Source: Ornithodoros turicata (lineage: Eukaryota > Arthropoda > Arachnida > Ixodida > Argasidae). Taken from it: a stretch of 64,000 nt of DNA. The notes below the pieces were generated by a model. That model saw only the letters and a list, made by a program, of their open reading frames with translations. It had not been told where the DNA came from and made no database searches. The stretch lies in NCBI RefSeq assembly GCF_037126465.1, contig NC_088202.1, positions 106,299,962 to 106,363,961 of the forward strand, given 5' to 3'. Shown one piece after another: positions 30,501 through 63,450 of this stretch. How positions within the stretch are numbered: the first letter of the stretch is position 1; every line of letters begins with the position of its first letter. The position numbers were made by a program, and so were the translations under genes.

Positions 30501-30510
30501 CTATAAAAGG
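30501..30510 (+). promoter_or_regulatory. TATA box of the DNA polymerase gene
   Basis: CTATAAAAGG is a strong TATA box with no other gene downstream before the polymerase. Transcription would start near 30535. The leader appears to be spliced: donors GTGAGT at about 30570 or GTAAGT at about 30594, acceptor TTGTTTTTCAG ending at 30649, donor GTGAGC at about 30747, acceptor TTTGACCGCAG ending at 30797. Confidence 0.65.
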
Positions 30511-34728: not shown

Positions 34729-34899
34729 CCGCGGAACAAAGAGCTGCACGCGCATGTAATCGAGAATAAAAGTTCTAGTCGAGACATGCTTCTCTCTCTC
34801 TCTCTCGCAGACAGGAGAAGTACGGGTCATCGTGGCAGTGTGGTAGCGGAATGGGTGTACGAAAAGAATGACCATTCCGTCATCGTGCTGGTGCAGTGA
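34673..34899 (+). other. Two alternative 3' coding exons of the DNA polymerase
   Basis: From the donor at 34611/34612 two acceptors keep the frame. One ends at 34672 (CTCTTTGTGCAG) and adds 18 residues to the stop at 34728. The other ends at 34810 (a CT tract then CGCAG) and adds 29 residues to the stop at 34897-34899. AATAAA at 34765-34770 follows the first, and AATAAA at about 35005-35010 follows the second. Both splice forms are inferred from sequence only. Confidence 0.45.
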
Positions 34900-35047
34900 C
34901 CCGCGCAATGACGACGCTGCGATGAAGATACCCCATATCCTTTCTCTTGAGGCAAGTCAGGGAGGGTGCAGGCATCTATCGACCAAGTCCTTTGTATGTA
35001 TTCAATAAAGATGTTTCAGTGAAAGAACACACAGAGTCTCGTCAAAG
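34729..35047. other. Polymerase 3' UTR region with two polyadenylation signals
   Basis: Contains AATAAA at 34765-34770 and at about 35005-35010, and a (CT)n tract before CGCAG at 34790-34810. No further independent gene is seen. Confidence 0.5.
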
Positions 35048-35506
35048 TTATTCGGACTGTTTAATGCGTTGCATGTCAATAACCAAGCGGTATTTCAATA
35101 AATCAGTGACAAAGTTGGCGATGTAGACTGCTTGCAAATGTCGCTGCTTCCGTAGAGCGTGCTTAATATGAGCGATGGCACGAGCGAGAAGGTCCACGAT
35201 GTCTGCAGCGATGTAGTTGAATTCTGCGTTGGCCAAGCTCACAAATTCGCTCATCAGTCCCAGGGGTCCGTCAGGAACCGTTATGCAGACGTTCTTGTAA
35301 CGGGCGTAAATTCGACGCACCATCTCCTGCAGCGGCCCCGGCGAGATCTCTCCTATATTGCCAAAGCCTACCATGTCTATCACGTAGCGAAAAGCAGTGA
35401 TGACGAGCTCGTTGCGGGGACTTTCGCCGTTGAAACATTCCTTCTCCACTTCTTCCCAAGAAGCGTGGGTGCGGGAACAATTTTGTAAAGAGTGGTAGCT
35501 GAACAT
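35048..35506 (-). CDS. Polinton right-end protein, 152 aa, unknown function
   Basis: The gene runs leftward from ATG 35506, 39 bases after the inward-facing TATA box in the right inverted repeat. The protein has a polar N-terminus (MFSYHSLQNCSRTHASWEEV) and a long helical C-terminal half (DIVDLLARAIAHIKHALRKQ, FVTDLLKYRLVIDMQR). No family recognised. A short frame at the palindrome centre (55212-55442) shows a similar helix pattern, including DIxxxL and LxK, which may be distant homology. Shared promoter sequence with the left-end gene suggests both are expressed at the same stage. Confidence 0.7.
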   Translation of the reverse strand: MFSYHSLQNCSRTHASWEEVEKECFNGESPRNELVITAFRYVIDMVGFGNIGEISPGPLQEMVRRIYARYKNVCITVPDGPLGLMSEFVSLANAEFNYIAADIVDLLARAIAHIKHALRKQRHLQAVYIANFVTDLLKYRLVIDMQRIKQSE

Positions 35507-35516
35507 CTTCACGTAG

Positions 35517-36750
35517 TGATGACGCGAGCGCGGTGCGCGCTGCCTTTATAGAGATAAACGCGCGCGCGCAAAGAACGGAGAATGAAAGCGAAACTGAAAA
35601 GCCACCCGTCGCCGCTAGGAGCGCGCGCGCAGCAGCAGAGAGCCGAAACCGAAAACACCCGCGGCCGGCGCAGGGGGCGCTAGGAGCGCGCGCGCGCGCA
35701 TGCGCAGACGGGTGGAGCAGAGGGCGCGCGCGCGTCGCCTCTCTCAGTTTCTCTCGGACCGTCGCGGAAGACGGACGTGCGCTCCGCGCGCTCGCTCAGT
35801 TGCTGGCTGCCTCTCGTAGAGCGCAGACGTATGTTCTCCGCGCTCGCTCAGTTTCTGCCTGGAAGTTGCCGCGGGGGAAAAGGTGAGTGATTTGACGCGC
35901 TCCTTTTCTCGTATGTTTGCCGTGTTTAGCGGTGACCGCGCTCGTGTTAAGCCTTTTCTCGCATGTTTAGACTTGTTTTGCGGTGTCCAAGCCTGTTGAC
36001 GCATGTTTAGCGATGTGTGGTTCCCGCCTTGTGTTAGCTGCGTAGTGTTGGGGTTAGGCCTAAGCGATCGCCCCCCGTAAGCCTCTTTCCTCGTATGTTT
36101 GCCGTGTTTAGCGGTGACCGCGCTCGTGTTAAGCCTTTTCTCGCATGTTTAGCGATGTGTGGTTCCCGCCTTGTGTTAGCTGCGTAGTGTTGAGGTTAGG
36201 CCTAAGCGATCGTCCCCCCGTAAGCCCTTTTTCCCCGATGTGTACTGTTTTCTGTTTAGCAGTAGCGGTTAGACCTTTTCTCTCGCATGCCTAGACTTGT
36301 TTAGCAGTGCTGTCATTTTTACCTGCCGCTAGTATCTTGTTCTGTCTCTCTCTCCTCTAGAGCTATGATGGTGGCGCCATCTGGTGTGATGCCTTGCAAC
36401 TAAGTGGCCACCTGTCGTCGATCTCTGCAACTACCCGACGTCAACAAGCACTGGTCACCCCGGAGCCGTTTCTTCGCCGCGGCATCGTTGATTTTCGAAT
36501 AAATTGTTTCTCTCCACTCTATTTCTATCTTTTCATTTTATTTTCTACCTATTTTTTTATTTTTTATCAGCTCAAGTAGCCGGCAACTCACATCTTCGTC
36601 TGGACGTGTCTTAGATGATCCCCAATTAGTGTAATGACTCCCTGAATGATCCTAATTACTGTGGGGGGTCCCAAATTGCTCTAATTGCTAATTAATGGCG
36701 TCCAGACGAAGATGTGACTTGCCGGATACTTGAGCTGATACACTACTACT
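35517..36750 (-). repeat. Polinton right terminal inverted repeat
   Basis: This is the reverse complement of 21304-22535, 1,234 bp. It holds the inward TATA box (minus strand CTATAAAGGC, TATAAA at 35550-35545), the CG-rich stretch, the repeated GGCCTAAGCGATCG blocks and the terminal palindrome at 36565-36740. Confidence 0.95.
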
Positions 36751-41085: not shown

Positions 41086-41522
41086 TGTCACGGATTGAGT
41101 TGAAAAGGACGATGAAGTGAACGTTTGGTGTATCACGTCATGTCACGTCATGTCACGTCAACGTTTGGTGTATCACGGTGTATCACGTCATCATTCTATA
41201 ATTCTGCAACGATCGACCTACGCGACGTCATACGTATGTACACTCTTAAAAATGAACTTCACCACATAGCACGCTCCTAGCCAACCATCACCCCGAATGA
41301 CAACGTTCTCGCCCTAGATTTGTTGAAAACGGGAGGAGGAGCCTATTTTGTGTCGTGCATAATCGGCATAAAATAGGCTCCTCCTTCCGTTTTCAACAAA
41401 TCAGGGGCGAAAACGTTGTCATTCGGGATGGTGGTTGGCTAGGAGCGTGCTATGTGGGGAAGTTCATTTCTAAGAGTGTACTTCTGTCTGGGATTCGAGG
41501 GAATAAATGTTTCCTACTGACA
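41086..41522 (+). mobile_element. Gypsy LTR carrying an inserted MITE
   Basis: The repeat begins TGTCACGGATTG after the pol remnant and ends CCTACTGACA, giving TG..CA termini. It has tandem GTGTATCACGTCATGTCACG words near 41128-41190 and AATAAA at about 41501. A family M MITE sits inside at 41241-41478. The 3' part matches 18136-18209. Confidence 0.65.
41241..41478. mobile_element. Foldback MITE, family M, copy 2, with clean TA duplication
   Basis: CACTCTTAAAAATGAACTTC and its inverse GAAGTTCATTTCTAAGAGTG flank a hairpin. TA is present on both sides (41239-41240 and 41479-41480), and the interrupted LTR is continuous across it. This copy defines the family termini. Confidence 0.88.
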
Positions 41523-42770: not shown

Positions 42771-43353
42771 CAGCAAGTCATGGGGCTGGTGTTCAAGTTC
42801 GCTGCTCACGCTGCACAGAGCCCTCATTCTCTCGTGTATCCTGTACGTGTCACCGTACGTAGGTCTGGGACCTTCACAATGGCAGGCTCTTGAGCGGCTC
42901 CATCGGGCAGGAATAAGAACGGCGCTTGGAATACCCAGCTTCTCTGGAATTACCCAGACTTACCTGGAAGACAAGGAAAAGCCCGTTAGCATTCATTTCG
43001 AGCTTAGGGGGCTCTGGTACTTAGACAACTTGGCCACGTCCGGAAGCAAGCACTCTCTTTTTTCTGCCCTCGTAAGAAGGTCACACACGTCCCTCGGCCG
43101 CTTGGCCTGCGAATACGCTACTAGCGCCCTGACCCACAGTGAGCGATCGCCTCAACATCCTGCTGGGTTACCTTTGGTGCCATGGCGGGAGTTTGCACCG
43201 GGTATAACGCTCTACGTTCCGGGCATTCATAAAAAGAAAGAATGTAGCCCCCTGGTCGCTAGAGTGGCGGCTGAGAACCCTATAAGCGACTTCTACCACT
43301 CGCATACTCTAGTATGCGATTAGTATTCACTGATGGCTCTATTGACGACCGTA

Positions 43354-43790
43354 CCCTCTTAGAAATGAACTTCACCGCATAGCACGCTCCTAGCCAACCA
43401 TAATCTCGAATGATATCGTTATCTGCCCCGATTTGCTGAAAACGGGAGGCGTACGCCATTTTTGTGACAATTATGAACAGCATAAGTGTCACAAAAAGGC
43501 GTACGCCTACCGTTTTGGACAAATCAAGGCACACAGCGATATCATTTGAGTAGGTGGTTGGCTACACTCTTAAAAATGAACTTCACCGCATAGCACGCTC
43601 CTAGCCAACCCTCATCTCGAATGATATCGTTATCTGCCCTGATTTGTTGAAAATGGAAGGCGTACGCCTTTTTTGTGACACTTATGCTGTTCATAATTGT
43701 CACAAAAAAGGCGTACGCCTCCCGTTGCGGTGAAGTTCATTTTTAAGAGTGTCGGAGCGTGCTATGCGGTGAAGTTCATTTTTAAGAGCG
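43354..43790. mobile_element. Family M MITE, copy 3, inserted in LINE C and split by copy 4
   Basis: The element starts at 43354 after TA and ends at 43790 before TA, within the LINE C RNase H region. Its right arm is interrupted at GGTTGGCTA by another copy of the same family (43565-43751), after which GGAGCGTGCTATGCGG completes the arm. Confidence 0.8.
43565..43751. mobile_element. Family M MITE, copy 4, nested in copy 3
   Basis: Begins CACTCTTAAAAATGAACTTC directly after TA 43563-43564 and ends TTCATTTTTAAGAGTG. Its right arm is shortened, with CGCCTCCCGTTGCGGTGAAG lacking the middle of the arm. Confidence 0.8.
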
Positions 43791-44794
43791 TACCAAAAGT
43801 GCTACTTGTGCCTTCCACTTCCCATCAGTGAACGTGGCCTGGCAGGGAAGATCATCGCGTTACCCGATATCCTCCACGACTGATGAACTCCTGGCTCTCC
43901 TGCACGCAGCTGCTGCGTGCAGGTGCGAGGGTTCGCCAGGGCAGTCCTACTCACAGACTCGAGAAGCGCTCTATGGGACGTGATGAGCCCCATGTGTGAC
44001 AACATCTTAGCGCGAAGCATCAGAAGATCGTGTAATCAGCATAAACAAACCGGAGGCGATATCGTCTTCCAATGGATCCCGTCCCACGTCGGAGTCGGCC
44101 GCAACGAAAGGACGGACCAGCTGGCGTCCTCGGCACACCTGGGCTGCAGCAATATTTTGCCAACTCCGGACGACACCGACAGGCAAATGGCCGTTCAGCT
44201 GCTTGTTGAACTGCGTCACCCTGGGATACGGGACATCATGCACCATCATCGCCCCTTTCTTCCCATGAAAGACCTTCCTCGAAGCATACAGACCATGCTC
44301 CATAGGCTCCGCACTGGGTATGCGTTCACCAACTCTCAACTATTCAAGATCGGCTCTAGGGGTGACGCCTGCTGTGGCCACTGTCAACAACCTGAAACAA
44401 TCGAACACATCCTGCGAGACTGCCGAGCGTACAATTCTGCGGGCGAAGGCTATCTCCCTCGCTCCACCTCGGGCACCCTAGCGGACATCCTCTACCCCGG
44501 TGGTTCTTCAGTCGAACGTTCCGCTAAAGCAAGAAACCTTATTCTCTTTCTGCAGAAGGCAGGTCTTGCTCAACGACCCATCTAATACTTTGCTCTCCCC
44601 GACGAACTCATGCATCTCCACCCTTCATCATTCATCCTCTATCCTCCATCCGTCCGTCCTTCTTCTTTTTTTTTTTTTTTTTTGCTATAGTCGTGACGAC
44701 GCCCACTTCTGTGTGGCCAACAACGGCGAGCCGATCCTGCCATCACCCCACCCCCACCACCACCACCACCACCCCTCAGTTTTTAGAGTGAACG

Positions 44795-47360: not shown

Positions 47361-47584
47361 CTTCACCACATATAGCACGCTCCAAGCCAGCCATCATCCC
47401 GAATGACACCGTTCTTGCCCATGATTTGTTGATAACGAGAGGCGGAGCCTACTATGTACCATGATGTACGGCTACAAAACGGGCCCCGCCTCCCGTTTTC
47501 AACAAATCAAGGACGAGAACATTGTCATTTGTGATGATGGTTGGCTAGGAGCGTGCTATGTGGTAAAGTTCATTTTGAAGAGTG
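47361..47584. mobile_element. Family M MITE, copy 6
   Basis: CTTCACCACATATAGCACGC to TAAAGTTCATTTTGAAGAGTG, with inverted GCCAGCCATCATCCCGAATG and GATGATGGTTGGCTAGGAGC arms. The left extremity is worn. Confidence 0.7.
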
Positions 47585-48960
47585 TAGAGCAGAATGTTAT
47601 GTGTGCCTCCGCGTTGGAATCTGATTGGGTGATACAATTCTTCAAATGACGTAACAATGGATTGAGGTATCTAGATAACGGTATACGACTACTCGCCCGT
47701 ATAAAAAAAAGTGCGTTTTTTCTATTTACAACAACAACAACAGTAAATGATGACGATGAGATGGGGTGTTTCACCGCGGTGGTGCGGTACCCTACCCCAT
47801 TGCACGTGGAACATTATGTGAAGATGATGAAGGAAGGATGAAAATACAAGAAACGCTACACATGTTATGAACCAGAAGTATTGAACAATGAATTGTAAAT
47901 AGAATTACGAAGCGTAGAAGAGCAACATTACACCTATTACAGCTGTAACTAAATACCTGCAGATAGGAGTTCTTACCTCCTTTAATAGAGCCCATGACAA
48001 TAACGCGAGTGTTACAAACTTTTTTTACGCGTTTTTTGTTTGTATGTGTTCGTTTGTGTTGGGCGTCAGTTAGTAAAGTACGTGTCGACAATTTGGTGCG
48101 AAGCGCACAACAATTTCGCAGGTTTGAGAAACATGTTCAACTTGTTATGTAAGTAGAATTTGCCAGTGCTATGAAATACCTCATCGTTCATCGGGCAGCC
48201 CTGTCATGACAGGCGAAGGATGCGCTGATATGCGCACGATTGATCGTCAATCACGCGGCGGACGATGATGGATGTTGATATTGGTAAAAAAAAAAGAAGA
48301 AGAAGGGAGAGATTGAAACGCGGTGGAACTAAAGTAGGGATGCCCACGCAATAGCTTTTGCATTATGTGCATAGATTACTGTAGATGCCGCATAGTTTCA
48401 GTCTGTACTACAGACTCAAGTTATAAAGTGCGTATGTATCGCAATCGACGAGGCGTTTCTACACCTTGAACAAGGTTTGTGATTTACGCACGAACAAAAC
48501 CAGAGTTTGCAGCATCCCTCTTCTCCTCTTCTCAGGAAGCGCGACAATGCGGAGCGGAGTCCCATTGGTCTCCTCACACGATTTGTCCAATCGCGAGAAG
48601 TGCGGTTTGAGGTGAACGAATGGCACGCCTCTCCGCATTGTACGTCGCGGTTCTTGAGAAAGACAGGAGAGGGAAGGTGCAAACTACGGCTTCGTTGGCG
48701 CATAAATCACGAACGGCGCAATGGCTGAAACCCCTTCCTCCTGTGTTGGGAAACGTTCCTTCTGTGTTAAGGTAACGACCTGTTTCATTCCGCGAGGTTG
48801 GTGTTGGGACGCGTTCCTTCTGTGTTAAGGTAACGACATGTTCCATTCCGCAAGGGGGAAAATTCCACTTTGGTGCCCTTTTAACGTAGAATACGTTCAC
48901 TGGCCGGATTTTTGTCAGCTTCAGAGGATGCTGCGTACGGTACTCGAGTAGGATAGTTTA
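47585..48960. other. No gene seen
   Basis: Short frames only. GTTGGGAACGTTCCTTCTG-type sequence is repeated at about 48749 and 48801. Confidence 0.35.
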
Positions 48961-48989
48961 AGGCTGTATAAGAACCAGACTGTATAAGA

Positions 48990-49990
48990 ACCACTTTTTT
49001 TCTAATCCAAGATGGCCTATTCTAATCCAATTCCAAGCCAAAATCCGGTTCTAAGCCAAAACAATCCAGTTCTAAGCCAACACAAGCCAATTCCAAAGCC
49101 ATCTGATTGGCTGCCATTAGCTCCGCCCACTTCACGTTGATTGGTCCACGCCAAGCCCCACTGATCATTGATTGGTCAATCGTAGCTCCACCCTTTATGC
49201 TAATTAGTTGCTTAGCTCCGCCAACTTCACGCTGATTGGCCCATGCTAAGCCTACTGATTGGTTGACTCTGCCCCTTTATGCTAATTACTTGGCTCCTTC
49301 ACGCTGATTGGTGCACGCCGATCGCTGAGCTCCGCTCCTAATTCACCGGCTCAGCTGATTGGTTCTACTGATCACTCTCGCAGCCCTCTGATTGGCCGTC
49401 CCCAATCTAAGCCTATCGATTGGCCCACTGATTAAGCCTGCTGAACATAGCCTTCGTTAGCGCCCGCCCGCTCGGCAGCGACCCCGCTGTGGCTTTATCT
49501 CAGATGTCCAAACTTGCCTCGTGGCGTAACTGGCTCCGCCCACTTCATGTTGATTGGTCCACGCTAAGCCTGCTGATCACTCTCCCAGCGCTCTGATTGG
49601 TCGTCCCCAGTCTAAGCCTACCAATTGGCCGTCGTTCTAAGTCCACTGGCACCAGATGGCGCAACTCTTTACTCGCTCCACCTGCTTCATGCTGATTGGT
49701 CTGTTCTAAGCCTACTGACTTCTAAGCCAAACCACGATAAGCCTACTGATTGGGCCTTCACACCGATTGGTTCATTATAAGCCTACCGATAGCTGGCCCC
49801 TGATTGGTCCACGATACTTACCTTGTGGCGCAACTCTTTATTGGCTCCACTCACTTCATGCTGATTGGTTCTACTGATCCAGACTTCTAAGCCAAACCAC
49901 GCTAAGCCTACTGATTGGCCCTTCACACCGAAGCCTACCGATGGCTGGCCCCGATTGGTCCACGCTAAGCCTACTGAACAGTGATTGGCT
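48990..49990. repeat. Array of ATTGG (CCAAT) words, left arm
   Basis: About twenty GATTGGT or GATTGGC words occur at short intervals, often in the context TGATTGGTCCACGCTAAGCC. The words are inverted CCAAT boxes. The right arm has the matching CCAATCA array at 61465-62320. The array looks like an expanded degenerate tandem repeat. Confidence 0.8.
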
Positions 49991-51065
49991 AGCCTGAATT
50001 TGTCGGCACCAGGCAGCCGCTTCAGACAAGACACAGCAATTGTTGATTTCAACCTTTATTTGGTGCAACAGCCTCCTGGTCTAGCTGCGGGTTGGTTCAG
50101 CTGCATCAGAGAGATCGTTAGTCCCAGTCATCTCTTGCGCTCATTGGTACTCAGCTCCCTCGGTAGATGCCATCTGGCTCATCTAACGGCAGGTGGTTGT
50201 GGTCATTGGCCCATCTGACTACAGGCCTCTCATTGGTCACTTATGTCTAGAATTCCCTAACAGGCTCGAACTGCAATTGGTCACTTCCACTCACCACTAG
50301 ACCCGACTGCTATAATATAAGTTTAAATGTGGGATATTGGAACTTTTACCATAAGATACGTTTAGCCGGGAGCTGGTAGGCTCCAACTGCTATCAACCCA
50401 TGCCTCCATCCGGGTGCTCACTGGTTCACAATGAAACTTTTTCACATGCTCTGATGGCGCCGAAGAAGGTTCCCTACACATATAATAGATGGCGCCGGTT
50501 GTACGCCCTCTTTGCAAAGATAGACAGCCGTGACACGAGTGTGAAAAAAAAAAGTCAATTTCATTGGTGACTCATTTCCATCCATCTGGTTCATACTTCT
50601 AGAGAGCCAGCGTTAGAAGGCTGAACAGCTTACATGCCGCCACCTCCTGCTGTTGGTTCACAATGAAACTTTCTCACATGCTCTGATGGCGCCAAAGAAG
50701 GTTCCCCACACATACAATAGATGGCGCTGGTTGTATACCGTCTTTGCAAAGAAGGCTGAGGCTGGACAGCCACGACGCGAGTGTTGATAACGTCCACTCT
50801 AACTGCATTGGTCACTCCTTTCTATGCGACTGGTTCATACATCTAGCAAGAGAGCCAGCATTAGAAGCCAAATCTGCTGCTGAACATTACAAAACATGAA
50901 TAAAACAGCTTACATCAATATGTTCGGTGCTGCCATCTGAAGTCAGCGTCCTTCATGCTATCCATGAATGCTATCCACACTATGCTATGCCACGCTTCAT
51001 GCTATCCACGATGAACACATCTTAAAACACACTCTACCCATCTCTCCATATAACACGAGTAAAGT
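49990..51065. other. Left-arm-only segment with a duplicated block
   Basis: This stretch has no counterpart in the right arm. CACATGCTCTGATGGCGCC and AATAGATGGCGC blocks are present twice (about 50450-50530 and 50675-50780). No gene recognised. Confidence 0.45.
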
Positions 51066-51869
51066 GGGCTTAACCATGTGTTATGCATGCGTAGGGGGAA
51101 GCCCACCACTGGGAACAAGCTTTCGTTTTTGTGATAGTGCGCCTTTGCCCTTCAACGTCAAAATGTAGTTCAGTGTTTATCAAGCAGAATGGAGAGGGAA
51201 AAACATAAATAATACTATAGAGTGAAGCTGAAGAACGAATTTTGTCGCAGATAGTGTGCTTCAACAACAACAAAAAAAAAGAAAAAGTCTTCAATGTTTA
51301 ATAAGCAGAGCGCAAAAAAAAAAAAGAAAAAAAACTCTTCGTGATGCCAAGCAGTGAAACCCACTAGCTCCGGACGCGTTCGTACTAAAAAGCTGAGCAG
51401 GAAGACGCACATGATAGAGAAACATGGATAGTTGATGGTGTGCAGAGAAGCTTGTTTTAGAGAAAAACGATTTCAATGTCGATTGAGCAGATGATCAAGA
51501 AACCCTGTAGAGCTGTACCTGCAAGGAAGCTTAGGATCATTTTGTTTTAGACAGTGTGCGTTGCACTTCAACACAAGGAACTAATTAAATGTTTATCAAG
51601 CAGAATGGCAAAGCATAGTAATGCTATGCGGTGAAGCTCAAGATTGTTTCTCTCACTGACGCTCCAACGCTTATTAAACTAAGTGATCGAGTAGAGTCAT
51701 AGTGGTTAGTGCTATGCAGTGAAACTCCGCACGTACTCAATATTAAAAAGAAGACTCAACCCAAGCTGAGTAGCAAGAAACACAATTTCAGATTGCCTTC
51801 GGAACTCTGACGGAGGCGTTCTGTGGAAACGTATCCAGCGTATATTTCACGCGACACACCTAGCACGCG

Positions 51870-53520
51870 TTCCTTCAAAACAGTACGCAAGATCACTATT
51901 AGACAGTAAGAAGCACCATTAGAAATATAAGTTAAGGGTGATCACACAGATTCAAAATGAACGAAGTTCATCACATTATAAGCAAGTTCATCTCAGAATA
52001 AATGTGTTCACTTTAAGAGTATCACAGCTACAAACATGACAGGTTTTACACCATTCACGGTGCGTCACGCGACACGAGCACCATACAGCACGCAATATCA
52101 GACAGCTCACGCGATTTTAGCCTGCCCATATCCGCGTATATTGGAATTTTTCACCTGAGAAGCATGCACACACCGTTATCACGTAGCTATGCATACACAC
52201 ACAATACGATTTTGAATACGTAATCTGCGTATGATCGCGACGCACGGGCTCAACATGCGCGATATAGACACATCAAACTGTCGCGCACCTTCCAGGTTTA
52301 CAAATCTACATCACACCTCATGTGCGCACCACAAACGTAGCCAGCGTAGATTTCACGCAACACACCTCCGCGTTCGCAGGAGCACTACTGAACAGCAAGA
52401 AGCACCATTAGAAATATAAATTTAGGGTGATCACACAAAAACGCACTCAATCTTAAAAAGTAGACTCAACCCAAGTTGAAAAAACACAATTTCAGATTGC
52501 TCTCCCAGAACATTCTGTGCAAACATAGCCAGCGTATATTTCACGCAACACACCTCGCACGCAGAGCACTACTCGAAGCACCATTAGAAATGACAGGACA
52601 CAACGTCGCATTATGAACAACTTCATCTCGGGAAAAAAAAATGTGCACCTTCGCAGACGGGCACATAGATTCACGAGCACCATGCAGGAATATCTGAAAT
52701 ACGAATTTCCGACGGCGCGCGCGCAGCTCACGCGACTTTAGCCTGCCCGTGTCCGCGTATATTGAGGTTTTAGACAGTGTGCTTTCAACGTAAGAAATTA
52801 ACTAAATCAACCAGAATGATAGAGCACAGTGATGCTATGTGATAAGACTCTCACTGACGCTCCAATGCTTATTAAACAATGCTATGCAATGAAGCTTCGC
52901 ACGTACTCACTGTTAAAAAGAACACTCAACCCAAGCGGAGTATGAAGAAACACAATTTCACATTGCACTCCCAGAACATTATGTGCAAATATAGCCAGCG
53001 CACGCAACCCACCTCGCACGTGCTCCTTCGAAACAGAGTATACAACTGGAAGCACCATTAGAAACATAAATTTAGGACAATCACACGGCGTCGCATTATG
53101 AACAAGTTCATCTCATAAAAAAAGGCTCACCTTAAGAGCATCGCAGACGGGCACATGGATTCATAAACTTGCGGTACAGCAGGACACGAATTTCGGCCGC
53201 GTGGACAGCTCACGCGACTTTAGTCTGCCCATGTCGGCATATATTGCAGTTTTAGACAGATGGTGTTCAACTTAAGCAATTAATTAAATCATGCGGAATG
53301 ACAAAGCATAGTGATGCTATGTGGTGAGGCTCCAACACTTATTGAACCGAAATTGGTTGTTGCTATGCACGCACGTACTCAACCCAAGCTGAGTATGAAG
53401 AAACACCATTCCAGATTGCCTTCACAGAACATCCCGCGCAGTCGCGCCTCCGCGTTCCTTCTCTACTGGAAGCACCAATATCAGAAATATTAGGATGGTC
53501 GCATTATGAACAAGTTCATC
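51870..53520. repeat. Roughly 480-bp degenerate tandem repeats, left arm (inverse at 57540-59000)
   Basis: The words GAAGCACCATTAGAAATA, GCATTATGAACAAGTTCATC and CAACCCAAGCTGAGTA recur near 51905, 52390, 52585, 53050 and 53470 at irregular spacing. Read from the right arm, each unit includes TCGCGTGAGCTGTCC and, in some, AAGGTGAGCC, which could be splice donors. I cannot assign a function. Confidence 0.65.
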
Positions 53521-53523
53521 TCA

Positions 53524-53769
53524 TCAAGAAAATGAGCTCACCTCATCACATCGGTGTGACGCACGCAGATTCTTGTCGGGCGACGCGGCACAGCAGGGCA
53601 CTGACTTCGGGCGCGTGGACAGCTCACACGATTTTAGCCTGCCCGCGCACACAGGCTCAACATGCGCTGACACACCAAAATGTCGCGCACCTTCCAGGTT
53701 CACACCCGCATGTCGACCACTTACCGTGCCAGCCGCACAGAAAACTAGATAGCCGGAACACAGGCGCAT
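53524..53769 (-). CDS. Cysteine-rich ORF in left arm (counterpart of 57245)
   Basis: The frame opens MRLCSGYLVFCAAG and continues with VCAGRLKSCELSTR and VPCCAASPDKNLR. It lies in the same position as the right-arm frame but differs by small indels after the first 14 codons. GTAAGT follows the first exon-like part. TATAAAA lies about 37 bases before the ATG in both arms. I do not recognise the protein. Confidence 0.3.
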   Translation of the reverse strand: MRLCSGYLVFCAAGTVSGRHAGVNLEGARHFGVSAHVEPVCAGRLKSCELSTRPKSVPCCAASPDKNLRASHRCDEVSSFS

Positions 53770-53969
53770 AATATACCCATCTCGGTTGGGACCATCTGTT
53801 TTATATCAATGCTCGCTCGTTTCCGCAAGGTTGCAAGTCCGAGAAATTGGGTCACCTTGAAGATGAGCCGGTGTTCGAGCCATCTGTTTAATATCAAAAC
53901 GCACTTCCACCCGTCATGGCCAAACTGAGTACTCTGCGGCGGACCCCAGCGGGAAAAAAAAATGTTGCG

Positions 53970-54395
53970 TCAAGGTGATGTAAATAGGCTTTCTCCGAGA
54001 AACTGGGTCACCTCGTAAATCATGTTTTCCGAGGCCGCGCGTATTAAAATCGAAAGTAAACAGTGATCACACAACGCTATGCGAAGAAAAAAAATATCCC
54101 TATGAGCCCGCATCACCACCTGCTCATTGCCGAAACAAGCTTTCTCTGACCAAAAGGGTTCGCTTATGCAGTTTCCAAGAAGTTCCAAATGTCCACGCGC
54201 GCGCATCGGGCCGTACCTGCGTGATTGTGTAAACAAAATCGCACCACCCTCCAAGGGCGCATTTGAGTTCCGTCTGTCGGTCGACTCTGGGTCAAGCGCA
54301 CGACGAGGAAGGACTATTGTCTTCAAGATGAGGAAAGTTCTCATTTTCAGTTCATTCGGTGTGCGTAGAAACTGAGAAGTCATGTCATCTGTTTT
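53970..54395 (-). CDS. Conserved ORF in left arm, about 137 aa, unknown
   Basis: The codons from ATG 54393-54395 downward match the right-arm ORF at 56630-57046. It contains TSQFLRTPNELKMRTFLILK, NSNAPLEGGAILFTQSRR and LLSILIRAASENMIYEVTQF. The only length difference is one codon, and the other changes are substitutions, so the frame has survived arm divergence. The antisense frame (54127-54375) is also open, so which strand codes is not certain. Confidence 0.4.
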   Translation of the reverse strand, partial: KTDDMTSQFLRTPNELKMRTFLILKTIVLPRRALDPESTDRRNSNAPLEGGAILFTQSRRYGPMRARGHLELLGNCISEPFWSEKACFGNEQVVMRAHRDIFFLRIALCDHCLLSILIRAASENMIYEVTQFLGESLFTSP

Positions 54396-54636
54396 CGAAA
54401 AGCCGGATAAACCCGGTGAGGGGGGCATTGTTCCGGAGAACGAAAAGCTGGACGTGTTGGTCGACACGGGGAGACCGAGTACGCGGCACTCCTGATGGAA
54501 AACGATAAACGCGTAAAGGTGCCCAGTCGTCTTAAGCGATTCACAAATGAAGAGTTGCAAGAAATGCGTGCATTACCGGATCTGAAACTGGAGAAGAGAC
54601 TCATGGATGGACCGCCCGAAATCCACGCGAAGTGAC
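54382..54636 (+). pseudogene. Divergent ORF of left arm, frameshifted, unknown
   Basis: It starts at ATG 54382, inside a CATG-containing junction with the minus-strand ORF. MSSVFEKPDKPG is followed by a frame change near the G-run 54419-54424, then TEYAALLMENDKRVKVPSRL, FTNEELQEMRALPDLKLEKR and a stop after EIHAK at about 54634. The right arm has the same downstream frame. Function unknown. Confidence 0.35.
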
Positions 54637-55211
54637 GCACCCCACAGCGAAAGTGCGCGCGCCCCATATGTAATCATCAGTAAAATAAGTGTATTTCCTG
54701 TTTTAAGATAAAAAAAAATGCCGTGCGGTGTGATGGAGAAGGAAGCTGTATAGATAAGACTCTAGCATGTGTTTATTTGTTAAGAATACTTCTGACAATA
54801 AAAATGTCATAGAAGGAGTGGCATACAAGGTAATAAGTAATACACTGAACAACTGAACAGTGAGATTACATAGTTCTAGCTGAATATGAATAGGAAGGTT
54901 ATAAAAAGATATTGCTTATTTATCGACTAAGCGAGTATAGTTTGTGGAGAGGATACCACACTTTCGTAAAGCAATTTTATATCATATCCCAAACGTTCTG
55001 CGCGATCAAACAAGTCAGAGCATTATGGAAAGAAGAACACCGCTTCACACTTCACGGCATGTGCAATACCATAGCTTGTTTCGGCTTGCTCAAACAAGTT
55101 CTGGCATTTGTGCGTTGTGGCGAGGCGTGGGACACGTTGCGGTAAATGACGCGTATAATGGTACAGATTTGTAAGAAACACTGAAGAGATTCAAGGGGGA
55201 GGGGGGGGGGT

Positions 55212-55442
55212 GATAAGAGATCCTCCGACATTTGTTTCGACATCCTCTTCTTCATTGTTTACGCACAAATATCACGTAATCTCAATGAAGTCCTAAAGAA
55301 GTCGGAATACGAAGACATTGTACCTGTAGATATCTTTCAAGCTCTCCTTCTGCTATGCGTGCAGGTCTGTCGGTGGAATCAATGTTGTTGTTGCGTGATT
55401 TATGAAGCGAGCGGTCGGTTTATCTTTTCAAGGATTGAGTGA
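55212..55442 (+). pseudogene. Palindrome centre frame, possible relative of Polinton right-end gene
   Basis: A frame with DILFFIVYAQISRNLNEVLK and VDIFQALLLLC resembles the helical end of the 35048-35506 protein (DIVDLL, IAHIKHALRK, FVTDLLK) in spacing and pattern. Identity is low, so this is only suggestive. It precedes the clear 131-aa gene relative in the same orientation, the same order as those two genes on the Polinton minus strand. Confidence 0.3.
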
Positions 55443-55690
55443 AATGGTACAGCGCTTTCGGCAAATAAACGTTTAGTTGCATCAAAAATCTATGGATGAT
55501 CGTGAGATACAAGTTGGAGTGATATAGAAACGGAGAACCCATGAACGAGACAATCATAAATGCCGTGTATACCATCCCCGTGGTGCGTGACTACTGGAAA
55601 AAGAACCACACGAGCTTGGACGTTACCGTCGTCGAGGGAAAGGAACGTGTTGTCTCCACATTAGAAGACGTCCTCGCTAAAGTGTTGTGA
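55420..55690 (+). pseudogene. Decayed relative of the Polinton 131-aa gene
   Basis: The C-terminal part from ATG 55541 reads NETIINAVYTIPVVRDYWKK, then HTSLDVTVVEG, then RVVSTLEDVLAKVL and a stop. It aligns with INAGFNRPIVRRYW, HTSLDVTV and RRVSTLEDRLARVL of the Polinton protein at 28759-29154. Upstream VRYKLE and YRNGEP match DYKLELL and YRRGET but are separated by an in-frame stop near 55525. AATAAA (55690-55695) overlaps the stop, as AATAAA abuts the stop of the Polinton gene. The homology is strong; activity is unlikely. Confidence 0.75.
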
Positions 55691-56378
55691 ATAAAGGACA
55701 CCGTGTTTACCACAAACAAAAATGTTTTCATCATCTTTATTGATTTTAGCAGCGATATGGGAAGCGTATGTTTGTGACACAAAAGTTCGCATGAAATAAA
55801 TGCGGGAATGGAGCAACCACTACTTTTATTATATAAAACAAATCCCCCTCGCGAACGCCAACTACGTGCGGTAAGCATATTGCCCCCACAAGCGTACGCC
55901 TCCCCACAACGCACAAATGCCAGAACTTGTTTGAGCAAGCCGAAACAAGCTATGGTATTGCACGCGCCATGATGTGTGAAGCGGTGTTCTTCTTTCCATA
56001 ATGCTCCGACTTATTTGATCGCGCAGAACGTTTGGGATATGATATAAAATTGTTTTACGAAAGCGTGGTATCCTCTCCACAAACTATACTCGCTTAGTCG
56101 ATGAATAAGCAATATCTTTTTATAACCTTCCTATTCATATACACCTAGAACTATGTAATCTCACTGTTCAGTGTATTACTTGTTACCTTGTATGCCACTC
56201 CTTCTATGATATTTTTGATGTCAGAAGTATTCTTAACAAATAAACACATGATATAGTCCTATCTATACAGCTTCCTTATCCATCACACCGCACGGCATTT
56301 TTTTCTCTTAAAACAGGAAATACATTTATTTTACTGATGATTACATATGAGACGCGCGCAGTTTCGCTGTGGGATGCG

Positions 56379-56630
56379 TCACTTCGCGTGGATTTCGGGC
56401 GATCCATGCATGAGTCTCTTCTCCAGTTTCAGATCCGGTAATTCACGCATTTCTTGCAACTCTTCATTTGTGAATCGCTGAAAACGACTGGGCACCTTTA
56501 CGCGTTTATCGTTTTCCATCAGGAGTTCCGCGTACTCGGTCTCCCCGTGTCGACCAACACGTCCAGCTTTTCGTTCTCCGGAACAATGCCCCATCACCGG
56601 GTTTATCCGGCTTTTCGAAAACAGATGACA
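56379..56630 (-). CDS. Divergent ORF of right arm (counterpart of 54382), unknown
   Basis: The frame carrying ETEYAELLMENDKRVKVPSR and FTNEELQEMRELPDLKLEKR is open to the stop at 56379-56381. The ATG matching the left arm (56630-56628) lies in a different frame from it. Charged and helical; no family recognised. Confidence 0.35.
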   Translation of the reverse strand, partial: CHLFSKSRINPVMGHCSGERKAGRVGRHGETEYAELLMENDKRVKVPSRFQRFTNEELQEMRELPDLKLEKRLMHGSPEIHAK

Positions 56631-57046
56631 TGACTTCTCAGTTTCTACGCACACCGAATGAACTGAAAATGAGAACTTTCCTCATCGTGAAAACAATTGC
56701 CCTTCCTCGTCGTGCGCTTGACCCAGAGTCGACCGACAGACGGAACTCAAATGCGCCATTAGAGGGTAGTGCGATTTTGTTCACACAATCACGCAGGAAC
56801 GGCCCGATGCGCGCGCGCGAAGGACATTTGGAACTTCTTGGAAACTGCATAAGCGAACCCTTTTGGTTAGAGAAAGCTTGTTTCGGCAATGAGCAGGTGG
56901 TGATGCGGGCTCATAGGGATATTTTTTTTCTTCGCATAGCGTTGTGTGATCGCTGTTTACTTTCGATCTTAATACGCGCGGCGTCGGAAAACATGATTTA
57001 CGAGGTGACCCAGTTTCTTGGAGAAAGCCTATTTACATCACCTTGA
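56630..57046 (+). CDS. Conserved ORF in right arm, 138 aa, unknown
   Basis: Starts at ATG 56630 within the palindrome CATG and is shared head-to-head with the minus-strand ORF. It is the same length as the left-arm copy apart from one extra codon (MRAREGHLEL instead of MRARGHLEL), with a handful of substitutions. The C-terminal part (DIFFLRIALCDRCLLSILI) is hydrophobic and helical. No family recognised. Confidence 0.4.
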   Translation: MTSQFLRTPNELKMRTFLIVKTIALPRRALDPESTDRRNSNAPLEGSAILFTQSRRNGPMRAREGHLELLGNCISEPFWLEKACFGNEQVVMRAHRDIFFLRIALCDRCLLSILIRAASENMIYEVTQFLGESLFTSP

Positions 57047-57117
57047 CGCAACTTTTTTTTTTCCGCTATGGTCCGCCGCAGAGTACTCGTGTGGCCATGG
57101 CGGGTGGAGGTGCGTTT

Positions 57118-57215
57118 TGATATAAAACAGATGGCTCGAACACCGGCTCATCTTCAAGGTGACCCAATTTCTCGGACTTGCAACCTTGCGGAAACGAGCG
57201 AGCATTGATATAAAA
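57118..57215 (+). promoter_or_regulatory. Duplicated TATA elements before the cysteine-rich ORF
   Basis: GATATAAAACAGATGG at about 57118 and GATATAAAATAGATGG at 57207-57222 are about 90 bases apart. The second TATAAAA (57209-57215) is 36 bases before ATG 57245. Both are conserved in the left arm (about 53800-53895 inverted). Confidence 0.5.
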
Positions 57216-57244
57216 TAGATGGTCCCAACCGAGATGGGTATATT

Positions 57245-57502
57245 ATGCGCCGGTGTTCCGGCTATCTAGTTTTCTGTGCGGCTGGACACGGTAAGTGGTC
57301 GACATGCGGGTGTGAACCTGGAAGGTGCGCGACATTTTGTGTGTCAGCGCATGGTGAGCCTGTGTGCGCGGGCAGGCTAAAATCGTGTGAGCTGTCCACG
57401 CGCTTGAAGTCAGTGCCCTGCTGTGCCGCGTCGCCCGACAAGAATCTACGTGCGTCATACCGATGTGATAAGGTGAGCCCATTTCTGAACGCTTTTGTGT
57501 GA
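57245..57502 (+). CDS. Cysteine-rich ORF in right arm, 85 codons, possibly spliced
   Basis: From ATG 57245 the frame reads RRCSGYLVFCAAGH, then WSTCGCEPGRCATFC, then VCAGRLKSCELSTR and VPCCAASPDKNLR, with more than ten cysteines. A donor-like GTAAGT follows codon 15 (57290-57295), and AAGGTGAGCC lies near 57469-57478, so the mature form may be spliced. The short hydrophobic start could be a weak signal sequence. A small secreted protein is possible, but the left-arm copy is shifted and the evidence is thin. Confidence 0.35.
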   Translation: MRRCSGYLVFCAAGHGKWSTCGCEPGRCATFCVSAHGEPVCAGRLKSCELSTRLKSVPCCAASPDKNLRASYRCDKVSPFLNAFV

Positions 57503-59484
57503 ATAAACATATACCCCCCCCCCCCCCCATTTTCTTGATGAGATGAACTTGTTCATAATGCGACCATCCTACTATTTCTAATATTGGTGCTTCCAGTAGA
57601 GAAGGAACGCGGAGGCGCGACTGCGCGGGATGTTCTGTGAAGGCAATCTGGAATTGTGTTTCTTCATACTCAGCTTGAGTTGAGTACGTGCGTGCATAGC
57701 ACCAACCAATTTCGGTTCAATAAGCATTGGAGCCTCACCACATAGCATCACGATACTTTGTCATTCCGCTTGATTTGATTAATTGCTTAAGTGGAACGCC
57801 ATCTGTCTAAAACTGCAATATACGCCGACATGGGCAGACTAAAGTCGCGTGAGCTGTCCACACGGCCGAAATTCGTGTCCCGCTGTACCGCGAGTTTATG
57901 AATACATGTGCCCGTCTGTGATGCTCTTAAGGTGAGCCTTTTTTTTTTGTGTGTGTGAGATGAACTTGTTCATAATGCGACATTGTGTCCTGAGCTTATA
58001 TTTCTAATGGTGCTTCGAGTAGTGCTCTGCGTGCGAGGTGTGTTGCGTGAAATATACGCTGGCTATGTTTGCACAGAATGTTCTGGGAGAGCAATCGGAA
58101 ATTGTGTTTCTTCATACTCAGCTTGGGTTGAGTCTGCTTTTTAAGATTGAGTGCGTTTTTGTGTGATCACCGTAAATGTATATTTCTAATTGCGCATGTA
58201 CTGTTCAGTAGTGCTCGTGCGAACGCGGAGCTGTGTCGCGTGAAATGTACGCTGGCTACGTTTGTGGTGCACACATGGGGTGTGATGTAGATTTGTAATC
58301 CTGGAAGGTGCGCGATAGTTTGATGTGTGTATATTGGCGCATGTTGAGCCCGTGCGTCGCGATCATACGCAGATTACGTATTCAAGCTCGTATTGTGTGT
58401 GTATGCATAGCTACGTGATAACGGTGTGTGCATGCCTCTCAGGTGAAAAATTCCAATATGGGCAGGCTAAAATCGCGTGAGCTGTCCAAGCCTTTCTGAT
58501 CATGCGTGCTGTATGGTGCTTCTGTCGCGTGACGCACCGTGAATCTATGTGGTGTAAAACCTGTCGTATTTGTAACTGTGATACTCTTAAAGTGAACACA
58601 TTCATTCTGAGATGAACTTGCTTATAATGTGATGAACTTCGTTCATTTTGAATCTGTGTGATCACCCTTAACTTATATTTCTAATGGTGCTTCTTACTGT
58701 CTAATAGTGATCTTGCGTACTGTTTTGAAGGAACGCGTGCTAGGTGTGTCGCGTGAAATATACGCTGGATACGTTTCCACAGAACGCCTCCGTCAGAGTT
58801 CCGAAGGCAATCTGAATACGTGCGGAGTTTCACTGCATAGCACCAACCACTATGACTCTACTCGACCACTTGGTTTAATAAGCGTTGGAGCGTCAGTGAG
58901 AGAAACAATCTTGAGCTTCACTGCATAGCATTACTATGCTTCGCCATTCTGCTTGATAAACATTTAATTAGTTCCTCGTGTTGAAGTGCAACGCACACTG
59001 TCTAAAACAAAACGATCCTAAGCTTCCTTGCAGGTACAGCTCTACAGGGTTTCTTGATGATCTGCTCAATCGACATTGAAATCGTTTTTCTCTAGAACAA
59101 GCTTCTCTGCACAGCATCAACTATCCATGTTTCTCTATAATGTGCGTCTTCCTGCTCAGCTTTTTAGTACGAACGCGTGCGGAGCTAGTGGGTTTCACTG
59201 CTTCGCATCACGAAGAGTCTTTTTTTTTTTTTGCGATTTGCTTATTAAACATTGAAAGCTTTTTTCTTTTTTTTGTTGTTGTTGTTGAAGCACACAATCA
59301 GTGACAAAATCCGTTCTTCAGCTTCACTCTATAGTATTATTTATGTTTTTTCCTCTCCATTCTGCTTGATAAACACTGAACTACATTTTGATGTTGAAGG
59401 GCAAAGGCGCACTATCACAAAAACGAAAGCTTGTTCCCAGAGGTGGGCTTCCCCCTACGCATGCATAACACATGGTTAAGCCCA

Positions 59485-61457
59485 ACAACAACAACTAAAT
59501 CATGACTATGGTCTGGGGTGATTCACCGCTTGAGAGCAGTACCCTACCCCATTACACGAGAAGCATGAGATGTGAAATATGAAAATGAAGTTATGTGCAA
59601 GTCCAACTCGAACTCCCGTCGTCTGGTTGCGCAACGCTATACGTCGCACAAAAGGAAGAAGCACATGAAAGAAGCGCCAATGGTCCTTGAGGTGCAGGGG
59701 TGGACCCTACAGCATCTGGAGCAAGCCGGTAGCCAAGAGGAACTCCAAGAACATCAGAAGTCCTCGACGGGGTTGGACATGGCTCTGACATGGGCCAAGA
59801 ATTGCAGCCAGGTTGAACGTCTGTCGGCTAGCACCACTCAGCTGAGCACAGAGTTGCCGTCTCTCCGTTTCGTAGAGCTTACATTCTATTAGGACGTGCT
59901 GAATGTTCGCTTCAACGCCACATTTGGAACATAGGCAGCTGTCACAGTATCCGATTCGGCACTTGAATTGGGGAGTGAAGGCAACGTTGAGACGAAGCCT
60001 GTGCAGGAGGGACGTAAAATAGCGTGGTAAACGGTCAGGAACTGAGAAGGACATAGTGGGATCCACAGAATACATGAGAGACCTGTCAGTGATGTCCCGA
60101 CTCCACTGCTGGCGAGCTAGTGGCTGAATGAGCTCATTCAGAAGTGATCTCCTGTCTCCTCTTGATAACACCGTTGGTACAACAGCCCGAGACTGTTGGG
60201 CAGCCGTTGCCGCTCTGTCGGCTTCTTCGTTTCCGCTCAAACCACAGCGACCCGGGACCCACTGCAGGGATATATGATGACCGTGATCGCTTAGAAGCTG
60301 AACCTGATGGAGGATATCAGTGACAACTGGGGCGAGCGATCCACGTATTCCCATGTTGGCTATACATTGAAGAGCAGCCTTTGAATCTGAGTAGATGACC
60401 CAGGCCCGCGGATCGTCACAGGGCGTCTTACGTAGAAACAACAGGATAGCATATAACTCAGCCGACGTTGATGATGTGCGGTGTGATAGACGGTATCCAT
60501 GTGACACACCGTCAGTTGGAATAACAAATGCAGACGATGAACATTCATGACTGGAGGATCCGTCAGTGAAAACTGCAGTGTGGTCAGAATAGCGATTGTG
60601 CATCATATCCGCTGCAAGCTGTTTCAGAACTGATGTAGGCACTTGGTTTCGTTTGACATTAAGACCAGGAATTGACAATGCGATCGATGGTACTGGAAGC
60701 GACCACGGAGGCGCCGTGGGCACCACTGATCTTGCAGAAAACGGGGGAACCTTAGGTTTCACTTCCATGAAACAGTTGTATGCGTTACATTGCTTCCGGC
60801 GACAAACTTTTGCTATTAGTGGATGGCGGCGGTGGTGTGCTCTGAGGCGCAAGTAATGGCGAATGGTCTCCCTCTGCCGTAAGACTTCAATGGGTATTTC
60901 GCGGGCTTCTGCTATCACCATCCGCGTTTCCGCGGCTCTCGGGACGCCAAGACATACCCTTAAGCTCCGCGCTAGAATACACCGCAGTCGTTGTTCTTGC
61001 GTCTGTGAAATTCCGTGCAAGACTGGTAGGCTATATAGCAGAGTCCCTCGGACTAGGGCTTTGTGGATGGCCAGAAGAGACTTCTCATTCATTCCCCACT
61101 TCGGCCCAGCAAAGTGGCGAATGACGGAAATCCACCGGTGTGCCTTTGTGTCCAGGTGATCGATGTGTTTCTTCCAGGACAAGTTGGAGTCTAGGATGAC
61201 ACCGAGGAATCTATGGTGTGCTACCAGCCTAAGAGGCGTATCGCCAAGGAAGAGCTGATACCGATGCATATGCTTCCGAGTAAAAGCCATGACTGCTGTT
61301 TTCTCAGTTGATATATCCATGCCTGCCTCTGTTAGGTACCGCAAGATGTTATCCAGGGAATGCTGAAGACGGCGTAGGATTGCAGGCCTCGATTTCCCAA
61401 CAGTCCAAATGCAGACGTCATCAGCATAGATAGATATATTGACTTTAGGGGCGATAC
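59485..61457 (-). mobile_element. LINE D, 5'-truncated R1/I-like LINE with RNase H, inside the right arm
   Basis: The insertion interrupts the right arm. It ends on the minus strand with a GTTGTTGTTGTTG tail at about 59495-59483 and starts abruptly at about 61457, just upstream of the RT catalytic box YADD (about 61430-61419). The long open frame suggests it inserted after the arms formed. Confidence 0.85.
59707..61455 (-). CDS. LINE D ORF2 C-terminal part: RT end, RNase H and zinc motif
   Basis: Minus-strand reading begins with IYADDVCIWTVGKS (RT active site) and continues without a stop to 59707, about 580 codons. RFLGVILDSNLSWKKHID is the RT thumb region. The RNase H domain shows its acidic residues in AVFTDGSSS, STSAELYAIL, VIYSDSKAAL and GNEEADRAA. 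A CCHC-type motif, CDSCLCSKCGVEANIQHVLIEC apart from its last two residues, is near the C-terminus. This layout is that of I/R1-type LINEs. The first ATG in the frame (61344) is internal and not a true start. Confidence 0.88.
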   Translation of the reverse strand: MAPKVNISIYADDVCIWTVGKSRPAILRRLQHSLDNILRYLTEAGMDISTEKTAVMAFTRKHMHRYQLFLGDTPLRLVAHHRFLGVILDSNLSWKKHIDHLDTKAHRWISVIRHFAGPKWGMNEKSLLAIHKALVRGTLLYSLPVLHGISQTQEQRLRCILARSLRVCLGVPRAAETRMVIAEAREIPIEVLRQRETIRHYLRLRAHHRRHPLIAKVCRRKQCNAYNCFMEVKPKVPPFSARSVVPTAPPWSLPVPSIALSIPGLNVKRNQVPTSVLKQLAADMMHNRYSDHTAVFTDGSSSHECSSSAFVIPTDGVSHGYRLSHRTSSTSAELYAILLFLRKTPCDDPRAWVIYSDSKAALQCIANMGIRGSLAPVVTDILHQVQLLSDHGHHISLQWVPGRCGLSGNEEADRAATAAQQSRAVVPTVLSRGDRRSLLNELIQPLARQQWSRDITDRSLMYSVDPTMSFSVPDRLPRYFTSLLHRLRLNVAFTPQFKCRIGYCDSCLCSKCGVEANIQHVLIECKLYETERRQLCAQLSGASRQTFNLAAILGPCQSHVQPRRGLLMFLEFLLATGLLQML

Positions 61458-61464
61458 AGGACTT

Positions 61465-62320
61465 GGCTTAGACAGTTTGGCTTAGAAGTCTGGATCAGTA
61501 GGACCAATCAGCATGAAGTAAGTGGAGCCAGTAAAGAGTTGCGCCACAAGGTAAGTAGCGTGGACCAATCAGGGGCCAGCCTTCGGTAGGTTTATAATGA
61601 ACCAATCGGTGTGAAGGCCCAATCAGTAGGCTTAGAAGTCAGTAGGCTTAGAACAGACCAATCAGCATGAAGCAAGTGGAGCAAGTAAAGAGTTGCGCCA
61701 TCTGGTGCCAGTGGACTTAGAACGAGGGCCACTTGGTAGGCTTAGACTGGGGACGACCAATCAGAGCGCTGAAAGAGTGATCAGCAGGCTTAGCGTGGAC
61801 CAATCAGCATGAAGTCGGTTGGAGCCAGTTACGCGACGAGGTAAGTTTGGACACCTGTGATAAAGCCACAGCGGGGTCGCTGCCGAGCGTGCGGGCGCTA
61901 ACGAAGGCTATGTTCAGCTGGCTTAATCAGTGGGCTTAGAACGAGGGCCAATCGATAGGCTTAGATTGGGAACGGCCAATCAGAGGGCTGCGAGAGTGAT
62001 CAGTAGAACCAATCAGCTGAGCCGGTTAATTAGGAGCGGAGCTCAGCGATCGGCGTGCACCAATCAGCGTGAAGGAGCCCAGTAATTAGCATAAAGGGGC
62101 GGAGTCAACCAGTCAGTAGGCTTTGGATGGGCCAATCAGCGTGAAGTTGGCGGAGCTAAGCAACTAATTAGCATAAAGGGTGGAGCTACGATTGACCAAT
62201 CAATGATCAGTGGGGCTTGGCGTGGACCAATCAACGTGATGTGGGCGGAGCTAATGGCGGCCAATCAGATGGCTTTGGAATTGGCTTGTGTTGGCTTAGA
62301 ACTGGATTATGTTGACTTAG
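61465..62320. repeat. CCAAT array, right arm
   Basis: Inverse counterpart of 48990-49990, with CCAATCA words at short intervals, for example GGACCAATCAGCATGAAG and GGCCAATCAGAGGGCT. Confidence 0.8.
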
Positions 62321-62429
62321 AACTGGATTGTATTGGCTTAGAACCGGATTTTGGCTTAGAATTTGATTAGAATAGGCCATCTTGGATTAGAAAAAAGTGG
62401 TTCTTATACAGTCTGGTTCTTATACTGTC

Positions 62430-63450
62430 TATACTACTCACTTGTCCGATCACGATTGTCCCATTCTATTCGTCCACCTCTCCTCGCCTCAGAAAAAGAA
62501 TTCTTTTTCGATCTAGGATCGGGCTTGTTTCCCTTGGGACGGAAAGCAAACGTCTTACCTGAGGGCGTTGAACTTTTTTTTAAACTGATGTATTGGAATC
62601 AGACAGTTACGAACGTGCTCCTTGCATGTTATTCGAAAGCGAGGGTATATCCCGTGGGACCCAAATTTCGCGATGCATGCTCTCCATCGTTATACAAGCA
62701 TACCCTTCTCTTGTGAGCCTGATGCCCCGTTCATCCACGCATCGGAGAGCTTTGAGGGAGTATGGAACCACGCAATGATGTTAGAATGAGCGTAGCATCC
62801 GCGTTCAATGATTGAACACGTTGCCAGATGTGTCAAAATAATGAGGGGATTACAGTAAACTGTGCTTAGTGCTCTTCGACTTCGCGCCACTCGTTTGTTG
62901 AAGGTTCCAGCGCCTTTACTTTTCTGTCATCGTTACTAATGTTTCATAGGATCTTGATTTCGCGTGCCAAAGTGACGATCGTGAAATTCGCGGGAATTAT
63001 GTCCTCGCAAGGGGTACTAATTGTACATTATGCAGTGTTGTAGACGCTATGTCTGTGAAACTTTGACGTAGTGTACTCATTTGATGTACCGTAAGATAAA
63101 TGCTGGCCGTCGCGGAAACTCTTCTAGTGTGGTAATATCTAGGGTTTACGATAGCTTCTTTTAGCAAACACTGGTAAATAGGAAAACAGTAAATTTCAAG
63201 ACCTCACGGACAAATGTTTCGCAAGCGACGAAGGATACGGCATAAATGCAGGCGAGTCGGTGGAGAAACTCCGTACTGAAAAATGGGCACAGGATTTGTG
63301 GGCTGTCGTCGTTTTTCCCTACCCCAAACTCGAGACTTTTTCAGTATGGTGTCGTCAGCGGTACGTCGTGCGGTTTTGCTCGTACAAATGCTAGCAAATA
63401 CCCCGTGGTTTTCTGTGGACAGAACAAAAAACCTGTCTGCATCTGCTTAG
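62430..63450. other. No gene seen; intron before neurexin exon
   Basis: No coding region recognised in this stretch, which belongs to the intron ending with acceptor CTGCATCTGCTTAG at 63450. Confidence 0.4.

Follow-up and report, generated by a model that had tools for sequence, protein, structure and literature searches.

The palindromic element and the neighbouring Polinton

The analysed stretch of the 1.07-Gb assembly of the soft tick Ornithodoros turicata (Argasidae; C2:106299962-106363961, 64,000 nucleotides, hereafter the window) contains both a Polinton (Maverick) and a giant palindromic element. The latter occupies positions 48947-62438 (13,492 bp) and comprises a left arm of 6,182 bp (48947-55128, plus strand) starting with AGTAGG, a unique centre of 767 bp (55129-55895, plus strand), and a right arm of 6,543 bp (55896-62438, minus strand) ending in ACTACT, that is, AGTAGT when read inward; the arms form giant terminal inverted repeats (TIRs). 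The element is bordered by TACTCG at 48941-48946 and CACTTG at 62439-62444, a target-site duplication (TSD) whose two sides agree at four of six positions, both differences being transitions. The initial annotation had described two arms of about 6 kb in inverted orientation around a unique centre. This arrangement is confirmed by a scan for inverted pairs and by BLAST, and the arm sizes hold, but homology does not extend throughout the arms, the centre is shorter than the 776 bp given there, and the bounds 48962-62428, although nearly right, lie slightly inside the exact ends.

The arms are matched by BLAST in the pairs 48966-49897/62425-61475, 51065-52979/59484-57630 and 52901-55128/58156-55896. 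The scan yielded 27 inverted pairs, each 60 nt or longer, nested about one centre; among the 25 listed, the 18 longest are 93-99% complementary and the remaining seven 81-92%. In the arm alignment (segments of 300 columns, gaps uncounted, the unrelated stretch excluded) identity is 94-99.6% in 13 of the 17 segments and 82-94% in the remaining four. The stretches at 49898-51064 in the left arm and at 59485-61474 in the right arm (minus strand) are unrelated and have no counterparts in the opposite arm; the right one includes an open reading frame (ORF) at 59707-61344 on the minus strand with an RNase H domain (PF00075, E 1.3e-12), probably derived from a non-LTR (long terminal repeat) retrotransposon. 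Near the ends, GTATAAGAACCA is present in two copies 16 bp apart (48966-48993, plus strand; mirrored at 62398-62425), followed by 21-bp tandem repeats (49024-49101, plus strand; mirrored at 62270-62368). A second small reading frame of the palindrome family (54382-54635, plus strand, ATG to TGA), its frame broken in the window copy, is mirrored in the right arm.

The Polinton (21304-36750, plus strand) has 1.2-kb TIRs that are 99.0% identical, AGTAGT ends and a perfect TSD, CATGTC. Its integrase (rve), PolB and C5 protease are backed by Pfam, while the ATPase and capsid genes are guesses without such backing. One small gene is shared with the palindromes. In the Polinton it encodes a protein of 131 amino acids (P0001; 28759-29154, minus strand), and the centre of the palindrome carries its decayed relative (55484-55687, plus strand), as had been proposed: in tblastn the two share 53% identity across 74 residues, with an E value of 5e-14 when the whole 64-kb window is the target and 1.1e-14 for the element by itself. 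The matched stretch contains one stop, and the N-terminal half, which other copies retain, is not matched. The AATAAA-type signal noted earlier is also present, TGAATAAA overlapping the stop codon in both genes (at 55688, next to the matched stretch, in the palindrome).

When ten proteins of the window Polinton were compared with the window palindrome by tblastn, only the 131-aa gene matched, with no matches for the integrase, PolB or protease; in loci L009-L061 the same ten proteins again yielded only this gene, save for a decayed PolB beside the locus C6:28.3. Hence the gene set of an autonomous Polinton (PolB, rve integrase, ATPase, protease, capsid) was not found in the palindromes at the sensitivity of tblastn, which would miss a machinery gene of great divergence.

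Copies, ends and target-site duplications across the genome

The centre of the palindrome has at least 115 matches in the genome (best 40 of 332 candidates scored), and the family gene, with the C1:124.7 copy as the query, at least 150, of which 134 out of 150 contain no stop (best 150 of 3,032 candidates scored). The further copies anticipated by the initial annotation do exist, and the element is not a single-copy one. Among the gene matches listed, 28 convergent pairs lying 1.1-3.3 kb apart were counted by eye; the spacing is 1,985-2,130 bp in 23 of them and exactly 2,103 bp in ten. Judging by pairing, spacing and homology, the latter would be young palindromes, and the identical spacing of ten pairs suggests a recent burst; these ten are known from gene positions alone, the convergent pairs with sequence read being C1:124.7 and one side of C1:126.0.

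Beyond the window, the sample consists of stretches of 21 loci, ten of them fetched at length (C1:126.0 on one side only). Eight of these ten show inverted arms of their own at the threshold applied (C2:11.37, C5:43.84, C2:75.70, C3:59.43, C4:51.72, C1:124.7, C1:47.19 and C25:4.43), extending over 1,048 bp around the centre in C1:124.7, and nine of the ten have sequence matching the window element on either side of the centre. The copies are not uniform in length, in their indels or in what makes up the centre. In C1:124.7 the gene is located in both arms, as two convergent copies around a short loop. The central gene is not private to the window copy; it recurs across the family and occurs twice in this element. 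The locus C25:4.43 (C25:4433144 to beyond 4459999) harbours a pair of palindrome copies as part of a larger inverted structure, the flank of one being the inverted counterpart of the flank of the other; this is a secondary duplication or an assembly fold-back, the site being within about 75 kb of a contig end.

In other copies, near full-length matches of the palindrome gene to the Polinton gene show 45-53% identity, with shorter matches reaching up to 62% and one gapped match at 32%. The pooled pN/pS (nonsynonymous to synonymous differences) among the fetched copies is 0.74 (7 copies, 97 codons), and in a larger set 0.94 (11 copies, 55 codons in register) or, excluding the window copy, 0.84; thus, there is little sign of purifying selection on the palindrome gene among the fetched copies. 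No Pfam or NCBIfam family reached the cut-off for P0001 or the palindrome genes. Protein searches yielded two candidates for the palindrome gene, neither at E <= 0.001, and one match out of eight candidates for P0001, on a 949-bp contig; a scan of viral contigs with the palindrome end repeat gave no match. The structure predicted for the 131-aa protein from two sequences has a mean pLDDT (predicted local distance difference test) of 55, too poor for a structure search.

The ends were located by BLAST boundaries or by likeness to known end sequences, partly aided by a motif scan, and C25:4.43 was excluded from the end and TSD counts. A total of 23 readable ends were obtained for 17 elements; 21 of them are exactly AGTAGT, and two have one mismatch, the left end of the window copy (AGTAGG) and that of C3:38.13 (AGGAGT). 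Thus, the prediction of shared ends holds for all 23 ends read, which carry (AGT)2 if one mismatch is allowed at two of them. Four end types, A-D, were distinguished: the first 7 bp are common to all, types A, B and D coincide over the first 10, and the sequences differ beyond. The fetched sequence of C5:43.84, C3:38.97, C10:4.65 and C1:126.0 (the last on one side only) contained no end. An alternative placement of the ends of the window copy at TATAAGAACC, with a 3-bp CTG duplication, was dropped; C2:11.37 and other copies put the element start about 20 bp further out.

Among the six two-ended elements, the 6-bp duplication is perfect in four: C1:131033944-131051234 (AACCTC), C3:38127040-38139954 (GATGCG), C6:38046162-38058008 (AATGTT, the left flank being partly N) and C127:609452-622358 (AGCATC). 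It agrees at five of six positions in C2:11373568-11385781 (CAAATC/CAAGTC) and at four in the window copy. No perfect duplication of 2-5 or 7-10 bp, 8 bp included, was observed in any of the six, and the control, with 2,500 offset pairs per element, produced three perfect 6-mers away from the ends, summed over the six elements. Thus, the 6-bp duplication expected for Polinton-type integration is observed in two-ended elements, and a repeated element bears both Polinton-type ends and a 6-bp target duplication.

Origin and mode of spread of the palindromes

According to the available part of PMC8097293, the commonest end motif of vertebrate Mavericks is (AGT)2//(ACT)2, accompanied by 6-bp TSDs. 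The palindromes have an end motif of the kind by which Polintons/Mavericks are recognised in that text ((AGT)2 or (AG)3; PMC8097293), together with terminal inverted repeats (arms of 6.2 and 6.5 kb) and the 6-bp TSD. They differ from Polintons/Mavericks in that the searched machinery genes were not found and the inverted repeat makes up most of the length. As Polinton ends and the insertion footprint are present without the searched machinery genes, the palindromes probably spread by borrowing Polinton machinery. We therefore consider it highly probable that they are a non-autonomous satellite family of Polintons, consisting mostly of two giant TIRs, which a Polinton integrase inserts in trans and a Polinton PolB probably copies. 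The initial suggestion of a Polinton-related non-autonomous element with giant inverted repeats is supported by the multiple copies, the (AGT)2 ends, the 6-bp TSDs and the shared gene.

Such a family would probably have originated when a genome of the Polinton lineage that carried the small gene had one of its ends duplicated in inverted orientation, so that the same end would appear on both sides of the palindrome. A protein-primed Polinton PolB would probably copy the element extrachromosomally from its ends, requiring only terminal sequence, and a trans-acting rve integrase of the Polinton type would read the ends and insert the linear element, duplicating 6 bp of the target. Palindromic defective genomes occur in other protein-primed replicons, namely adenoviruses and yeast linear plasmids. 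There too an inverted duplication is what is left of a linear replicon, and its two sides carry one type of end; however, these genomes are free replicons, whereas the tick palindromes form a family that is integrated, has been inserted repeatedly and has divergent arms.

P0001 has at least 150 matches in the genome that are 97-100% identical and contain no stops (best 150 of 3,527 candidates scored). Thus, a young and abundant Polinton family is present, which suggests that Polintons have recently expanded on a large scale in this genome. It is possible, and we suggest this tentatively, that the palindromes are a living satellite in the tick germ line that parasitises Polinton replication, integration and perhaps capsids, has recently been amplified alongside this very young family, and possibly curbs it.

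Several observations weigh against the satellite origin. Past the first 7-8 bp, no Polinton was found with arm or TIR sequence in common with the palindromes; as the TIR of the window Polinton shares nothing further, this Polinton need not be the helper of the palindrome family, and the abundant family may not be the helper. The window Polinton contains no relative of the second gene in the arms. The TSD of the window copy itself is imperfect, and 11 of the 17 elements gave a single end only, the second one not being found in C2:75.70, C3:59.43, C4:51.72, C1:124.7, C1:47.19, C6:28.3, C193, C3:35.9, C3:44.1, C9:8.18 and C7. The left boundary of C5:43.84 is not marked by AGTAGT (its match to the window element starts about 100 bp inside the end), the inverted arms of C4:51.72 extend over only 246 bp, and no inverted arms belonging to C3:38.97 itself passed the threshold.

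The palindromes could also be internal-deletion derivatives of an autonomous Polinton family with 6-kb TIRs, the palindrome being what remained after gene loss. TIRs of 100 bp to 8 kb were admitted in a survey of Polinton-like viruses, as stated in the available part of PMC12220804, and the decayed PolB (about 40% identity, C6:28300353-28302751) is situated about 4 kb to the left of the C6:28.3 centre, the left arm of this copy being cut at 28304697; this PolB may mark the parent Polinton lineage. Nevertheless, beyond this PolB and the 131-aa gene, the ten Polinton proteins gave no match in L009-L061 or in C6:28292000-28299800, and the location of the gene in both arms of C1:124.7 is not predicted by a simple deletion, so that we regard such an origin as rather unlikely. 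Far less probable is the capture of a fragment of a Polinton gene by an unrelated foldback transposon. The long, internally repetitive inverted arms do resemble those in the available descriptions of Foldback/Galileo-type elements, but the ends are (AGT)2, the duplication is of 6 bp, and the gene is found across copies rather than in one. Foldback and Galileo, of the P superfamily, generate target duplications of the 8-bp type, for which none of the six palindromes gave a perfect instance, and Galileo, in the available account, is assigned to the P elements on the basis of its transposase, in contrast to the Polinton-type ends and 6-bp TSD of the palindromes. With shared ends, duplications and a recurring gene, neither a lack of defined ends nor a captured fragment in an unrelated foldback, the two outcomes that would have spoken against the initial annotation, is observed. 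Hardly credible, finally, is a chromosomal inverted duplication or an assembly fold-back artefact: the mutually inverted flanks of the two copies in C25:4.43 are what it would produce, but the palindromes occupy separate loci with different flanks and have shared ends and target duplications, and the two arms differ by 4-5% both in the window copy and in C2:11.

Among known systems, the vertebrate Polintons/Mavericks, as described in the available part of PMC8097293, have (AGT)2 ends, 6-bp TSDs and inverted terminal repeats in common with the palindromes. Cryptophyte Polinton-like viruses likewise show the rve-type 6-bp TSD and were admitted with TIRs of up to 8 kb, but, unlike the palindromes, they carry a capsid gene and have TIRs at the borders (PMC12220804, available part). 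The literature searched (by titles and the beginnings of abstracts, mostly without subscription papers, without preprints and with Repbase outside the scope) yielded no non-autonomous or palindromic Polinton, and the available parts of PMC6431247, PMC8097293, PMC12220804 and PMC10120064 mention none.

A core position in the evolution of eukaryotic DNA viruses has been assigned to Polintons (PMC6431247, available part). If the palindromes are indeed a living satellite of the kind tentatively suggested above, they would be an animal counterpart of defective interfering genomes or virophages. A family keeping only Polinton ends would reveal what the integrase, and perhaps the polymerase, recognises; Polinton activity could be tracked via its parasites, and the satellite or interference biology of an animal Polinton could be put to the test in a tick that has recently undergone a Polinton burst.

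Arm divergence and other repeats in the window

The Kimura two-parameter (K2P) distance between the arms is 0.0465 in the window copy (3,109 positions) and 0.041 in the C2:11 copy, the value for the TIRs of the window Polinton being 0.0049. Of 16 comparisons (C25a left out), 6 place the two arms of one element closer to each other than to a different element; the ten misses include C5:43.84 at 0.216, which is probably a mis-paired repeat unit. The arms of C2:11.37 diverge by 0.5% in one segment and by 2.9-6% in three others. Judging from these comparisons of sequence, the two arms seem in most cases to have been passed on as distinct sequences, with conversion in patches, and not to be remade by fold-back every cycle, and in that case arm divergence would not date the insertion. 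Dating of insertions by arm divergence was rejected, given that own arms are nearest in so few comparisons.

The window also contains a tandem satellite with a 64-bp period (about 2.8 kb, 8597-11414), an 801-aa ORF with endonuclease and reverse transcriptase domains of a non-LTR retrotransposon (12814-15219), and two tandem duplications, at 15548-17240 (765-bp units, 99.9% identical) and at 18224-19425 (units of about 283 bp). Short, mutually related palindromic repeats resembling miniature inverted-repeat transposable elements are located at 3635-3897, 41238-41487, 43350-43796 and 47361-47587.
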